From NCBI GenBank assembly GCA_014379595.1, contig JACMLM010000071.1, positions 124,001 to 188,000 on the forward strand: 64,000 bases of DNA. The letters run 5' to 3'. Under the pieces are notes generated by a model that had not been told where the DNA came from, made no database searches, and worked only from the letters and a program-made list of their open reading frames with translations. Origin of the DNA: Anaerolineales bacterium. Its GTDB lineage: Bacteria; Chloroflexota; Anaerolineae; Anaerolineales; Villigracilaceae. Of this stretch, positions 33,393 to 38,709 are shown piece by piece. Made by a program: the position numbers and the translations under genes. Numbering within the stretch: position 1 is the stretch's first letter; every line of letters begins with the position of its first letter.

Positions 33393-33956
33393 ATGACCAT
33401 CACCTCGACTTCTCTTGTCCTTGTTTGTTTACTACCCACCCCACGCGACTTGGAAATTGCGCGGTTATTAGGATGGTATCGAATTCCGCTTCGCACCGCG
33501 CCCAAAGTTGTGGCTGTGGACTATCTAGCTTTTTATCAACCCTCGGCATTTGCACAGCACGGCGGACAAATCGAATTCATAGCGTCAGTCCGCGGGCATG
33601 AGTTGACCACACGAGGTGAACTATTGCGCGACGAAGCGAATCATCCGCGTGCAAAGGAAGAATATTACAAGATCCAAATTGGAGCATTGGAAAAATTACC
33701 CCAGCCAATTTCTACAGATAAATGGAAACGATTAACCTTTTTATATTCCACTGGTGAATATTTGCTGAATGCAAAAACGTTAAATGACCTTGTAGTAGCT
33801 GGCGATGAACGTCAAATCCTCTGGCGTTCCTTGCGAGAACGCGCCGAAAATGCCCAACTCTACAAAACAGACCTGCCCGCAGTAGATATTCCGCCAGAAG
33901 TGCTGATGGCGTTGTTGGGCATTAAAGAGCTGCAAACCGATTATGACACGCCTTAA
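33393..33956 (+). CDS. Conserved-looking protein of unknown function
   Basis: 187 aa. The sequence PTPRDLEIARLLGWYRIPL and, later, TFLYSTGEYLLNAKTLNDL are well-ordered alpha/beta segments without known motif. It contains RGHELTTRGELLRDE, which has charged residues suitable for nucleic acid binding. No membrane segment. It lies 16 bp after the cyclase gene and 126 bp before the TnpA-like fusion gene on the same strand. I cannot assign function. Confidence 0.6.
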   Translation: MTITSTSLVLVCLLPTPRDLEIARLLGWYRIPLRTAPKVVAVDYLAFYQPSAFAQHGGQIEFIASVRGHELTTRGELLRDEANHPRAKEEYYKIQIGALEKLPQPISTDKWKRLTFLYSTGEYLLNAKTLNDLVVAGDERQILWRSLRERAENAQLYKTDLPAVDIPPEVLMALLGIKELQTDYDTP

Positions 33957-34013: not shown

Positions 34014-34065
34014 CTAGTTAGAGCTAACTAGTCCCCTTGTACGGCTTGATTCCGCCTCTTATAAG
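34014..34065 (+). promoter_or_regulatory. Promoter and palindromic site of the TnpA-like fusion gene
   Basis: TTGTAC (34037-34042) and TATAAG (34060-34065) are 17 bp apart, a good promoter with its start near 34072. Directly upstream is a perfect 18-bp symmetric element, CTAGTTAG (34014-34021), AG, CTAACTAG (34024-34031), placed at about -40 to -60, where an activator could bind. No Shine-Dalgarno sequence precedes the ATG at 34083. Confidence 0.6.
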
Positions 34066-34082
34066 TGATAAACTTCATACAA

Positions 34083-35732
34083 ATGCCAGCGGATATTCTT
34101 GTCGTTACCCCCTCTTCCACTCTTGGAGATACGGTCCGTCGCACATTAGAAGAGACGGAGCTTTACCGTATCCATGTGGTTAACAATAAATCATCTGCTG
34201 TCGTACGTGCAGATGAGATTGGCGCTCCGCTTGCCATGCTCGATTTCGCTCTCGGCGAGGGCTGGGTAAATGAAATCGGCTATGCTCTGCGCACCATTCG
34301 ACCAGGCATTAATCTCGTTATCCTGTTTGATGATAATGTGCCTGCTCCTCCCCTGGATAATTTGCGCCCATGGATCCTCGTTCGTAAACCCTTTAGAATG
34401 TCGGAATTTATGACTGCTATCTCAAAACCTCAAACTACTTCCAGTACACAAAGCAATGTAGCCACCGCTACTATGCCGTGGTTAAGCGATGTCAGCAAAG
34501 CCGCACAGCATCTCACGCGCCTCACACTTGAATCTTCTGCACAGGCCGCATTAATCACACGCAACAATGATCTTTGGGCATATGCGGGAGGCCTTTCACA
34601 AAGTGCTGCAAAAGAAGTGGCTCAAACTGTTACACGCAACTGGGATGGGCAAAAGGGTTCGGACCTCTTACGATTTATCCGCCTCGAAAGCACAAAAGCT
34701 GAGCACATGTTATATGCCACCCGCCTCGGAACAAATATTGTGCTGGCTCTCGTCTTCGATGCAGAAACACCTTTTAGCACCATCCGCACTCAGGCCAGCC
34801 AGTTGGTTAATGACTTTGGCACTGAAAGACCTGAGTCTCAAAAACCAGCCAAACATACGTCGAAACCAGCCTATGAATACCCCACCGATCTGGATGAGGG
34901 CGATTCAATGGACATCGCTCCAATTTCAAATATTCTCACCAACATACCGACGCCAAATCCCGAACCACCTTCAACACGGGACTTTGGCCCGCCGCGCAAA
35001 AAAGAAAATTTTGATCCCAACGAAACGCGCATCGCTACTTCGCTTTCGAATGCCTCTGTTTTCAATCGAGAGGCATCACCCTCTGTCCAATTGAATAATC
35101 TGGTTATGACCGATCAGGCTAAGGGTCCAGACCTGAACGTGCAAGCGCAAACATCATTTGATGAAGTTGAAGTCACAGCGCCATCACGTCCGAGGCATAG
35201 ACCCGAAACTCCCATCTCCAGACCTGAACCCGGCGAACAAGATGTGACCCGCGAAAGCCCAACCACAGATGCTGTGAAAAAATTGATCGTGGAACCAACC
35301 ACAGCGGGCTTATATCATCTAACTTATGCTTGTTTGCTGGTGCCCCGTTTTTCAGCACATTACATCACCGGCGATCTGGCAGATCATCTAAGTGAATGGC
35401 TGCCAAATATTTGTATCGCGTTTGGTTGGCGTTTGGAATATCTTGCAGTGCGCCCGGAATATTTGCAATGGGTGGCGAATGTACAACCCAATACATCGCC
35501 TGGCTATCTCATGCGCATTATGCGCCAGCAAACTTCAGAAAAGATCTTTAGCGAATTCCTTCGCTTAAAGAAAGAGAATCCATCCGGTGATTTTTGGGCA
35601 CCCGGTTATTTAATTATGGGCGGCACACAACCTCACCCACCTCAGCTGGTTCGAGATTACATTCGGCAAACACGGCAGCGTCAGGGCCAGGAAGCCCCGC
35701 CCCAATCACGCGACCCACGGGTACGTAACTAA
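34083..35732 (+). CDS. Receiver-like / roadblock-like / IS200 TnpA-like fusion protein
   Basis: 549 aa from the ATG at 34083. Residues 1-115 look like a degenerate receiver domain: D54 (MLDFAL) and K102 (RKPF) are kept, but the acidic pair is replaced by T9-P10. Residues about 135-255 follow the roadblock/LC7 pattern (LITRNNDLWAYAGGL, then MLYATRLGTNIVLALVFD). A disordered Pro-rich linker (255-405) follows. Residues about 408-545 align along their length with the IS200/IS605 TnpA fold: YHLTYACLL, GDLADHLSEWL, RPEYLQWV, FWAPGYL and VRDYIRQT. The HUH pair is replaced (E459-Y460-L461-Q462), while Y526 matches the catalytic Tyr. It is not an active single-strand transposase by sequence. No IS ends are seen, so it is a host gene; role unknown. 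Confidence 0.72.
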   Translation: MPADILVVTPSSTLGDTVRRTLEETELYRIHVVNNKSSAVVRADEIGAPLAMLDFALGEGWVNEIGYALRTIRPGINLVILFDDNVPAPPLDNLRPWILVRKPFRMSEFMTAISKPQTTSSTQSNVATATMPWLSDVSKAAQHLTRLTLESSAQAALITRNNDLWAYAGGLSQSAAKEVAQTVTRNWDGQKGSDLLRFIRLESTKAEHMLYATRLGTNIVLALVFDAETPFSTIRTQASQLVNDFGTERPESQKPAKHTSKPAYEYPTDLDEGDSMDIAPISNILTNIPTPNPEPPSTRDFGPPRKKENFDPNETRIATSLSNASVFNREASPSVQLNNLVMTDQAKGPDLNVQAQTSFDEVEVTAPSRPRHRPETPISRPEPGEQDVTRESPTTDAVKKLIVEPTTAGLYHLTYACLLVPRFSAHYITGDLADHLSEWLPNICIAFGWRLEYLAVRPEYLQWVANVQPNTSPGYLMRIMRQQTSEKIFSEFLRLKKENPSGDFWAPGYLIMGGTQPHPPQLVRDYIRQTRQRQGQEAPPQSRDPRVRN

Positions 35733-35740
35733 AATTGAAG

Positions 35741-35776
35741 AAGCGCAGAGTATAATCAACTCTGCGCTTTATTTTT
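35741..35776 (+). terminator. Terminator after the TnpA-like fusion gene
   Basis: Eleven-base arms AAGCGCAGAGT (35741-35751) and ACTCTGCGCTT (35759-35769), 7-nt loop, then TTATTTTTA. Confidence 0.8.
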
Positions 35777-35787
35777 ATCTTATACAT

Positions 35788-35889
35788 TCGTCATTGCGAG
35801 GAGGGCACTTGCTCTTTCCGACGAAGCAATCTCCTGATTGTATTGAAGATTGCTTCGGGCAAAAAACAAGAACGCCCTCGCAATGACGA
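35788..35889. repeat. 102-bp inverted-repeat element (MITE/REP-like) before polA
   Basis: Outer 14-bp perfect inverted repeats TCGTCATTGCGAGG (35788-35801) and CCTCGCAATGACGA (35876-35889). Inside, a second perfect pair CGAAGCAATCT (35822-35832) and AGATTGCTTCG (35847-35857). This plan is shared with small non-coding repeats containing 'CGTCATTGCGAGG', common in bacterial genomes. It ends 21 bp before the polA start, so it forms most of its upstream region. Confidence 0.7.
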
Positions 35890-35910: not shown

Positions 35911-38709
35911 ATGCCTCCTACACTTTACTTAATTGACGGACACGCTCTCGCCTATCGAATGTATTTTGCCTTAACCGCAGGAGGGGGCAGTCAGCGCTGG
36001 CAGAATTCCAAAGGCGAACCTACTGCGGGCATCTATGGTTTTGCACGCGAACTGATTCGCATTTTCGAACAGGAAAAACCTGAATATCTTGCTGTGGCAT
36101 TTGATGTAGGCAAAACTTTTCGCGATGAAATTTTTCCTGAATACAAAGGCACACGCGAAAAAATGCCCGATGACTTGCGCCCGCAGCTTGATCGCATTCG
36201 CGAAATGGTAGATGCCTTTAACATCCCGCGCCTTGAAATGGAAGGTTATGAAGCTGACGATGTGCTCGGCTCTGTTGCAAAGATCGCTGTTGAGCAAGGG
36301 CTTGGCGTAAAAATCGTTACCGGTGACCGTGACCTGTTACAACTGGTCAATGAACGCACAGCCGTTTATCTTGCAGGCGATAATCAAACCTACATTACAG
36401 ATCAAGATGTAATTAAAAAGTTAGGTGTGCGCCCGAATCAAGTAGTGGATTACAAAGCTATCGTTGGAGATACATCCGATAATATTCCTGGTGTAAAAGG
36501 CGTAGGTGAAAAGACAGCCATCTCCTTAATTGAAAAATTTGGCACGCTGGATGCGATCTATCAAAATTTAGATCAAGTGGAAAATCGCTGGAAAGCAAAA
36601 CTTGAATCAAGTAAAGAACCCGCATACATGAGTTATGATCTCGCACGCATTCGCACAGACTTGAAAATAAATATTGATCTTGAAAATGCAAAAGTTAAAC
36701 CATTTGACGGAACTGCTCTTGAAGAATTCTTTAAAGAGATGGAATTCCGTACATTGTTAGGCAAGGTCGCTGCCATCAGCGGACATGAATCCCCAGCAGA
36801 AGTTGTGGCCAAGCCTAAAAAAGGAAAAGCTGGCGAACAAATTTCAATGTTTGTGAATGAACCGCAGGTTGTTTCCGTTTCACCCGTTTCAAATATCGAA
36901 GTAGTGATCGTAGACACAGAAGAAAAACTCAATGCTTTGAAAAAAGAACTTGCCAAAGCAAAAGTTATTTCCTTTGATACTGAAACCACATCTACACAAG
37001 AAGTTAGCGCAGAGATCGTTGGTATTTCGCTTGCTATTAAAGAAAAGCAGGGATATTACATTCCAGTGGGTCATTCTTCTGGGAATAACCTACCCATTGA
37101 AAAAGTGATTGCGGCATTGACGCCATCCATGACAGATGCGAAGATCGGCAAAGTAGCACACAACGCAAAGTATGACTTCATCATCCTTGCCCGTTATGGA
37201 CTCGTAGTTACCCCATTAACTTTTGATACTATGCTCGCAGAATTTATCGTTGATCCAGGCTCACGTCACCTCGGGTTAAAGAATCTTTCTTTGAATCGTC
37301 TTGGCGAAGAAATGCTTCACATTGAAGCATTGATCGGCAAAGGAAAAAAACAGATCACAATGGCTGATGTCGCCATCGAATCCGTTGCCCCTTATGCCGC
37401 TGCAGATGCAGAAACTACTCTGCGCCTCATGTCTATTCTGGAAAAAGAATTGATAAGAGTGAATGGCACAAAACTGCTGACAGAAATAGATATGCCCCTC
37501 ACAGCTGTGCTGGCTGATATGGAAATGACTGGCGCTTTGATCGACACAAAATTCTTCAGTACATTATCTGTGGAATTGACAAATCGCCTGGCAGAACTTG
37601 AGAAGGAAATTTTCAAACTAGCTGGGAAGACCTTCAACATCAATTCGCCGCAGCAACTCTCGGACGTGCTTTTCAATCACTTGCGCCTCGAACCACCCGA
37701 TAAAGGCCGCAAAACAGCAACAGGATTTTATTCCACTTCAGCCGATGTGTTGGAAGCGCTGAAAGATAAGCATCCAATATTGGAATGGATTCTTGAACAA
37801 CGCGAGCTATCGAAAATTAAATCAACTTATGTAGATGCTCTTCCAGCCGCAATAGATTCAAACACAGGTCGCGTTCATACATCTTACAGCCAGATCGGTG
37901 CAGTGACAGGGCGCTTATCATCGAACAATCCAAACCTGCAAAATATTCCGATCCGCTCCGAAACAGGACGCCGCGTGCGAAATGGATTTATCGCAGACAA
38001 AGGCAATGTATTGCTTGCAGTGGATTATTCTCAAATTGAATTACGCATTGTGGCGCACATGGCAAAAGATGAGGCGATGCTCCAGGCATTTCACGCGGAT
38101 GAAGATATTCACGCTACAACTGCAGCGGCCATCTACAATATTGAATTAGATAAGGTAACAAGCAATATGCGCCGCCATGCAAAAGCTATCAATTTCGGCC
38201 TCATTTATGGAATGTCTCCATTCGGTCTCGCCCGTTCCACAGATCTAACACTGGCAGAGGCTGAAGATTTCGTCAAAGCTTATTTCACAAAGTTCCCTGG
38301 TATTAAAAAATATTTGGATGGCATTCGCAGACAAGCCGCAGAGATCGGTTACGTGGAAACGCTGCTTGGGCGTAAAAGATATTTCCCAGCCTTACAGAGC
38401 AAGATCAATGTCCAAATGAAGAACCGTGAAGAACGCGAAGCAATCAATGCGCCAATTCAAGGTACCGCTGCAGATATTATGAAGATCGCCATGCTTAATA
38501 TTCCGCCTGCGCTTAAGGCCGCTGGGTTGAAAGCAAAAATGCTTTTACAGGTGCATGATGAACTCGTGTTGGAATGTCCGCAAGATGAATTGGAAAAGAC
38601 TGCCCGCCTTGTGCAGAAAACAATGGCCAATGCTTATGAAATAAGCATTCCGCTTGCCACTGAAGCACGCGCTGGTAAAAGCTGGGGCGAAATGCAGACA
38701 TTAAAATAA
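35911..38709 (+). CDS. polA: DNA polymerase I
   Basis: 932 aa. The 5' nuclease (about 1-290) begins LYLIDGHALAYR. The 3'-5' exonuclease (about 330-510) keeps its metal residues in SFDTETT, AHNAKYD and YAAADAETTL, so proofreading is likely intact. The polymerase part has motif A VDYSQIELR, motif B with RRHAKAINFGLIYG and motif C QVHDELVLE. The enzyme fills gaps and removes RNA primers. No ribosome binding site is seen before ATG 35911. The inter-domain segment 275-325 is rich in Lys/Ala. Confidence 0.97.
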   Translation: MPPTLYLIDGHALAYRMYFALTAGGGSQRWQNSKGEPTAGIYGFARELIRIFEQEKPEYLAVAFDVGKTFRDEIFPEYKGTREKMPDDLRPQLDRIREMVDAFNIPRLEMEGYEADDVLGSVAKIAVEQGLGVKIVTGDRDLLQLVNERTAVYLAGDNQTYITDQDVIKKLGVRPNQVVDYKAIVGDTSDNIPGVKGVGEKTAISLIEKFGTLDAIYQNLDQVENRWKAKLESSKEPAYMSYDLARIRTDLKINIDLENAKVKPFDGTALEEFFKEMEFRTLLGKVAAISGHESPAEVVAKPKKGKAGEQISMFVNEPQVVSVSPVSNIEVVIVDTEEKLNALKKELAKAKVISFDTETTSTQEVSAEIVGISLAIKEKQGYYIPVGHSSGNNLPIEKVIAALTPSMTDAKIGKVAHNAKYDFIILARYGLVVTPLTFDTMLAEFIVDPGSRHLGLKNLSLNRLGEEMLHIEALIGKGKKQITMADVAIESVAPYAAADAETTLRLMSILEKELIRVNGTKLLTEIDMPLTAVLADMEMTGALIDTKFFSTLSVELTNRLAELEKEIFKLAGKTFNINSPQQLSDVLFNHLRLEPPDKGRKTATGFYSTSADVLEALKDKHPILEWILEQRELSKIKSTYVDALPAAIDSNTGRVHTSYSQIGAVTGRLSSNNPNLQNIPIRSETGRRVRNGFIADKGNVLLAVDYSQIELRIVAHMAKDEAMLQAFHADEDIHATTAAAIYNIELDKVTSNMRRHAKAINFGLIYGMSPFGLARSTDLTLAEAEDFVKAYFTKFPGIKKYLDGIRRQAAEIGYVETLLGRKRYFPALQSKINVQMKNREEREAINAPIQGTAADIMKIAMLNIPPALKAAGLKAKMLLQVHDELVLECPQDELEKTARLVQKTMANAYEISIPLATEARAGKSWGEMQTLK

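Follow-up and report, generated by a model that had tools for sequence, protein, structure and literature searches.

In this study, we report a gene from an Anaerolineales bacterium whose product is confirmed to join a receiver fold and an MglB-like roadblock domain, through a disordered linker, to a TnpA fold of the Y1/IS200 type, and which, as newly found here, usually lies just upstream of polA, across its family and into other families. The Y1 domain, taken as a family, is very probably catalytically dead, to judge from its active-site residues, and computation shows that it has been inherited vertically under strong purifying selection.

The window, that is the whole stretch of DNA analysed, comprises 64,000 nt from an Anaerolineales bacterium of the Villigracilaceae (assembly GCA_014379595.1, contig JACMLM010000071.1, positions 124,001-188,000, forward strand). 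The following features, given in window coordinates, are referred to below.

33393..33956: gene of a 187-aa protein, upstream neighbour of the 34083-35732 gene
34045..34074, + strand: promoter-like CTTGATT-N13-GTGATAAACT, ending 8 bp before the ATG
34083..35732, + strand: REC-roadblock-Y1 (TnpA fold) gene, open frame of 549 aa
34083..34430, + strand: receiver-fold domain, residues 1-116; without the acidic pair, with D54 and K102
34473..34826, + strand: roadblock/LC7 (MglB-like) domain, residues 131-248; MglB profile match and 3cpt_B overlay
34827..35306, + strand: disordered linker, residues 249-408; low pLDDT
35307..35696, + strand: HUH-less Y1/TnpA-fold domain, residues 409-538; Pfam Y1_Tnp and structure matches
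35460..35468, + strand: Y460-L461-Q462 at the place of the HUH motif; Y in 61/67, Q in 61/67
35658..35660, + strand: Y526, catalytic-Tyr position; Tyr in 55/67, Phe in 12/67
35741..35776, + strand: hairpin AAGCGCAGAG-TATAATCAA-CTCTGCGCTT with T-run, terminator-like, TATAAT in the loop; hairpin proper 35741-35769
35911..38709, + strand: polA (DNA polymerase I), named from sequence, conserved downstream neighbour

Residue conservation was counted in alignment A1, which holds 67 of the 79 sequences of the working set, a row being dropped if it was at least 88% identical to one kept. The working set was made without L087, L092 and L094 and without the frames of L112, L114-L117, L119, L123-L125 and L128, which were split, partial, aberrant or lacking a domain. 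One orthologue frame (L029/L092) is 795 aa long, far above the usual 550 aa, and the orthologues of L112 and L087/L125 are broken into two or three frames, by sequencing error or frameshift. Loci of the genome set and of the contig collection are partly from the same species; those of the contig collection carry no GTDB family and were treated as close relatives because of their identity of 50-79%. Hairpins were counted in 59 unique gap sequences out of 65.

An in-frame GTG at 34065 lies within the conserved promoter-like box, so the ATG at 34083 is the likelier start. Of 59 regions upstream of the gene in close relatives, 50 have a pattern of the CTTGATT-N13-box type; a sigma-70 scan gave no promoter at the gene start at 34083, and the element is called promoter-like on the basis of its conservation. 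The initial annotation had assigned the gene its own promoter and terminator, and signals resembling both are present. It had also suggested checking co-occurrence with the 33393-33956 gene, whose product was without a match in Pfam or NCBIfam. That gene is present in 32 of 56 contig-collection loci and in none of the 25 loci L100-L124, most of which belong to other families and some of which are short upstream; the gene is thus a local neighbour, found beside the 34083-35732 gene in part of the close relatives only. No TnpB was recognised by eye in the frame list for 30-40 kb.

Y1_Tnp was the single Pfam family found in the 549-aa protein (E up to 1), at residues 411-529 (E 1.6e-11, 44.8 bits, cut-off 23), while the NCBIfam model transpos_IS200 gave 49.5 bits, under its cut-off of 55. 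An AlphaFold2 model built from the 67 aligned orthologues has three confident domains and a disordered linker, as had been anticipated, with a block-mean pLDDT of 40-55 over residues 250-409; its pTM is 0.39, and the relative placement of the domains is therefore meaningless. The predicted fold of residues ~404-533 is that of solved TnpA structures. When searched against the PDB with Foldseek, the top 26 matches were all titled transposase, the best being ISDra2 TnpA (E 1.4e-10), and the Y1 domain was superposed on 2ec2_E (Z 16.7, 2.0 Å, 111 residues, 24% identity) and, with residues 405-533, on 2fyx_A (Z 16.2, 2.6 Å, 127 residues). The Pfam and structure matches bear out the TnpA fold that the initial annotation had read at residues 408-545; the lack of a structural match, which it had named as counter-evidence, was not seen.

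Residues 1-116 matched Spo0F (1pey_C; Z 17.0, 2.2 Å, 115 residues). The acidic pair of the receiver is replaced by T9/P10, so that the window protein does not have the full set of acidic pair, Asp and Lys; the phospho-acceptor D54 is kept in 65/67 and K102 in 59/67 sequences of A1. The earlier description of a degenerate receiver is accordingly right for the acidic pair but not for these two residues. The roadblock region that had been suspected was recovered by two routes. Modelled alone, it matched 3cpt_B (Z 14.3, 2.2 Å, 104 residues), further roadblock structures and MglB; a profile made from 32 relatives placed MglB first among PDB sequences (E 1.4e-5). The Pfam model Robl_LC7 matched one of the 32 members, the window's own protein being without a match.

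Not one of the 67 aligned orthologues has both HUH histidines together. Tyr occupies position 460 in 61 rows and His in three; at position 462 the counts are 61 for Gln and three for His. In active TnpA the Gln or Asn following the Tyr serves as third metal ligand (PMC6006769, part of the text); the corresponding position 530 is T in the window protein and Q in 3/67. With the HUH motif absent, the third ligand rare and the Tyr not strict, the whole family has very probably lost catalysis. The loss of the HUH dyad, first read from the window, holds in all 67 aligned orthologues, and intact homologues, which would have spoken for another reading, did not appear among them. Retention of the catalytic Tyr is a local fact of the window protein: Y526 is there, but as a sign of function it is not supported, with Phe in 12/67. 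At the same end of the domain, R531 and Q534 are invariant (67/67). Seven other Y1_Tnp genes above the cut-off in the same genome have an intact HUH motif, as judged by eye.

Median dN/dS was 0.075 for the receiver, 0.036 for the roadblock, 0.14 for the linker and 0.032 for the Y1 domain, in 12 non-overlapping pairs chosen as the most similar among 40 candidates. Median identity to the window protein followed as 0.66, 0.86, 0.50 and 0.88, respectively (77-78 sequences). Pairwise divergence of the protein against that of PolA gave r 0.955 over 68 loci, the 2278 pairs being non-independent and some species entering twice. Protein searches returned one match in the own genome; among 61 genomes of relatives, the own one counted, 55 were matched, and within the GTDB family 77 of 80 genomes were, covering all 26 genera sampled. 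The domestication claimed in the initial annotation is supported by this single copy, vertical descent and purifying selection, and the spread within Anaerolineae, which it had proposed to examine, extends from 77/80 family genomes to members in other families. Phylum-wide, 49 of 301 genomes were matched, the distant matches being mostly to the Y1 region alone; of 15 such matches fetched, 12 frames have an intact HxH, one does not (L211), and for two the frame picked was a wrong one. The L211 protein (genome G150) is a stand-alone Y1-type protein that groups with TnpA and is also without HUH. Within the class, 44 of 199 genomes had a match to the roadblock profile. In the plasmid collection seven records were found, all ordinary TnpA at ~25% identity, and a search of the phage collection in distant mode gave no DNA match.

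Both the gene and polA are present in 77 family genomes; they share contig and strand in 68 of these and lie within 450 bp of each other in 64. The nine genomes with the two genes on different contigs are five of genus g329 together with G122, G154, G582 and G544, the last two being fragmented assemblies. Counted by locus, a family frame and a polA start on the same strand were found in 86 cases, 75 of them within 300 bp. Six Y1-form loci (L101-L105, L118) have gaps of 0-18 bp to polA, and the gene ends overlap polA in four loci, all of them forms without Y1. No polA was present in ~3 kb downstream in L071 or in 1.4 kb downstream in L082. Of 40 polA-upstream regions from other families of the class, five contain a member (f20, f24, f100, f115, f131); 35 do not, and five of these 35 are truncated by a contig end (L152, L154, L161, L164, L165). 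Some of these genomes have a roadblock match elsewhere. Adjacency to polA is no proof of joint function.

A PolA tree was built from the N-terminal part of 70 sequences, with a midpoint root, and was read for its topology irrespective of branch supports. The root separates two sides. One has all receiver-roadblock-Y1 members examined, and also f2 and f7, which keep receiver-roadblock without Y1, and f20, which has only the roadblock part; the other side holds receiver-roadblock or receiver forms without Y1 (f22, f100, f115). On the simplest reading, a receiver-roadblock protein already encoded beside polA would have gained the Y1 domain in a single event, followed by two or more losses. Roadblock-bearing frames in G380 and G444 are long enough for a Y1 domain and could alter this picture of gain and loss. 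Maximum likelihood was used for a tree of 51 Y1 domains (without rows L001, L004-L008, L201 and L203). Its split between 36 fused or stand-alone domains and the 15 sequences of the TnpA group, L211 among them, has a support of only 68; the support is 100 for 30 of the 36, that is, minus L109, L110, L113, L119, L156 and L167. Nine stand-alone copies form one group (94), which is joined with nine fused domains of this family (94), so placed that the stand-alone copies nest inside the fused set in this tree. By descent, the Y1 domain is a transposase.

The stand-alone copies were studied in 20 loci, a fetched subset of the matches in the searches of relatives and phylum. These hold 21 stand-alone frames of 144-248 aa, stop to stop, none of which combines an HUH with the Tyr; in one, HxH is present but the Tyr place is Phe, and Phe or Met occupies the Tyr position in 8/21. 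An Mrr-type endonuclease gene lies near the copy in 12 of the 20 loci (L170, L172-L177, L179, L184, L185, L188 and L189, the copy being at about mid-locus), accompanied in most cases by genes for a TPR protein and a 7TM-type kinase. The assignments derive from a Pfam scan of L170 (for the kinase also L171), extended to the other loci by BLAST clustering. With PADLOC, the Mrr protein of L170 matched the candidate PDC-S02 (E 1.8e-24), and the window protein and one stand-alone copy gave no match. The stand-alone TnpA fold with its Mrr neighbourhood is possibly a defence or stress system. In five other loci (L178, L180, L181, L182 and L187) the neighbour is a motA-type gene, named by a Pfam scan of L178; the second neighbour in these we take to be motB, and a further one, in four of the five, is presumably fliL. 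Several of the stand-alone copies are directly upstream of an operon.

Comparison with known systems places the protein apart from each. With TnpA of IS608 and ISDra2 (PF01797) the window domain shares the whole-domain fold, the last helix with the Tyr position and the FWxxxYL region; it differs in the absence of HUH and third ligand, the Tyr that is not fixed, the receiver-roadblock fusion, its single copy and its vertical descent. TnpA-type mobility was not observed, the genome having one match and divergence tracking that of polA. TldR, which became a transcription factor, descends from nuclease-dead TnpB, not from TnpA. Like the present protein, it is of IS605-type descent and was re-used for regulation in a host or phage; one of the stand-alone groups described above also lies beside motility genes. 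TldR differs in being RNA-guided (PMC13418256, in the portion available). TnpAREP/RAYT is likewise a single-copy, housekeeping-like relative of Y1 transposases, but it keeps the HuH/Tyr centre and acts on REP repeats, according to the available part of PMC8266576, whereas here the HUH is gone and the hairpin with TATAAT beside the window gene is unique in the genome. The domesticated Y1 transposases in the accessible portions of PMC8266576 and PMC6006769 keep the HuH/Tyr centre. All sequences of the latter survey share the HuH and Y motifs, as its available text has it, and the dead TnpA family therefore falls outside it. With MglB and other roadblock/LC7 proteins the common element is the roadblock fold, and with RomR-like receiver-containing regulators of MglA it is the theme of receiver plus GTPase regulator (PMC4316618, part of the text); in contrast to MglB and RomR, receiver and roadblock are here in one chain, with a TnpA fold added and beside polA. 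No description of a REC-roadblock-Y1 protein was found in titles and abstract openings among the literature matches listed.

In active transposases the TnpA fold is a dimer that recognises folded single-stranded DNA. We tentatively favour a regulator or adaptor that is non-catalytic and linked to PolA, in which the TnpA fold would be the targeting or dimer module. The roadblock domain would dimerise into a platform that possibly answers an MglA-like GTPase, the receiver-like domain would pass on a signal, and the TnpA fold would bring the complex to folded single-stranded DNA or to the replication machinery and cut nothing there; the activity or level of PolA would in this way follow a cellular signal. 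IS608 TnpA has been suggested to interact with DnaN, close to its catalytic Tyr, and has an affinity for fork-like DNA (PMC6006769, available part), which is why a fold of this type would be useful beside PolA; the corresponding end of the present domain has the invariant R531 and Q534. For the present protein, the DnaN idea would derive from that paper's suggestion, no motif having been found in the window protein. The fold, the loss of HUH, of the third metal ligand and of a strict Tyr, purifying selection, descent with polA, linkage to polA, the origin read from the two trees and a small GTPase-like gene present elsewhere in the genome were counted in favour of the PolA-tied regulator. Counted against it were the missing Y1 in two lineages that keep receiver-roadblock beside polA, the genomes or loci with polA on another contig or absent downstream, the overlap of gene ends only in forms without Y1, the terminator-like hairpin that separates gene and polA in the window, the support of just 68 for the split of fused domains from TnpA, and the net charge of the domain.

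For the window protein this charge is +2, and for the three members from f24/f131 it ranges from -9 to -4, against +4 to +11 in 13 and -2 in two of 15 TnpA-group sequences, the segment limits not being identical. The case for nucleic-acid binding by a near-neutral to acidic Y1 domain is therefore weakened, and the binding of hairpin DNA or RNA proposed in the initial annotation finds no direct support. A role in protein contacts only is thus kept open, with the TnpA fold acting as dimer or adaptor module of a roadblock/GTPase complex that would bind no nucleic acid; we hold it possible, if doubtful. The neutral to acidic Y1 domain of distant members, the lost active site and the nearly equal conservation of roadblock and Y1 (median identity 0.86 and 0.88) agree with such a role. 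It sits less well with a DNA enzyme, PolA, as the conserved neighbour, and no GTPase gene was present among the frames listed at 30-40 kb.

The sequence-conserved hairpin directly 3' of the stop codon bears on a further alternative, namely that the TnpA fold, now without HUH, controls the genes that follow its own by binding an adjacent palindrome or hairpin. Such a local, TldR-like regulator of expression, which we consider unlikely, would have polA as its target here and Mrr or motA-type genes in the case of the stand-alone copies. Of the 59 unique gaps of close relatives, 44 contain, no more than 150 nt from the stop, the constant core stem of 7 bp; its first outer pair varies yet pairs (GC 26, AT 12, GT 4, CG 2), which speaks for such a regulator. 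The same gaps contain TATAAT (36/44) and a T-run (42/44), and stem, T-run and TATAAT together are explained by a terminator overlapping the polA promoter, which is how we read the hairpin; its binding by the protein is possible. Where the genes are parted, the hairpin lies before polA in L073 and G122, with its 5' half and TATAAT in L080, which would suit control of polA, as the position of several stand-alone copies directly before an operon would suit control there. Against this, the hairpin stays with the gene, away from polA, in L063 and L068; in G561, where the gene is close to polA, the sole exact core stem among the matches listed is elsewhere; and the core stem was found neither in the loci read of other families, with gaps down to 0-18 bp, nor in those of the stand-alone copies. 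In its own genome there are two core stems, only the adjacent one with TATAAT.

An exact-core search matched 66 of 80 family genomes, a count not taken as support because many of the stems, among the matches listed, are elsewhere. Similarly, the invariance of 15 hairpin sequences gives no independent support since they were picked for having the hairpin. A search of Rfam by E-value (up to 1) gave two weak matches on the other strand, both under the gathering scores. The initial annotation had seen neither hairpins nor element ends nearby; a conserved hairpin does follow the stop at 35741-35769, and nothing marks it as an element end. An IS right end or a REP is not supported as an identity for it, given its place before polA in the parted loci and a loop unique in the genome, although in L063 and L068 the hairpin stays with the gene. 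Between the hairpin and polA, at 35790-35888, the window has a palindromic element of ~100 bp that looks REP- or MITE-like, because its 17-nt end occurs in nine exact copies in the genome.

A residual enzyme, in which the YUQ motif and the Tyr would still nick or join single-stranded DNA, is very improbable. The window protein has Y526 and Q462, and Y460 and Q462 are each found in 61/67; the first His and the third metal ligand (T530) are missing, however, and the Tyr gives way to Phe in 12/67 orthologues and to Phe or Met in 8/21 stand-alone frames. A decaying transposon fusion or an annotation accident is hardly credible and was rejected, descent from a transposase notwithstanding, on the strength of an intact HUH in 0/67, matches in 26/26 family genera, a divergence that tracks polA and a dN/dS of 0.03.

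Returning to the PolA-tied regulator, a wider and rather improbable form of it may be put forward as speculation. The dead TnpA would be a nucleic-acid- or clamp-directed arm that ties PolA, in lagging-strand synthesis or repair, to a small-GTPase signal, and the arm would later have been released in stand-alone form. Equally speculative is the companion suggestion that stand-alone arms would put a like control on the Mrr/TPR/kinase operon and on motility genes. If this were true, TnpA would be the parent of a non-catalytic family of host regulators, as TnpB was of TldR.

The steps that may be read from these data are a receiver-roadblock protein beside polA, the gain of Y1, the loss of HUH, the stand-alone copies and two lineages without Y1. 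The HUH motif is gone, yet the fold is among the most strongly selected parts of the protein, and the gene is linked to polA family-wide and beyond. It thus offers a case of a transposase fold turned host module that is open to testing.
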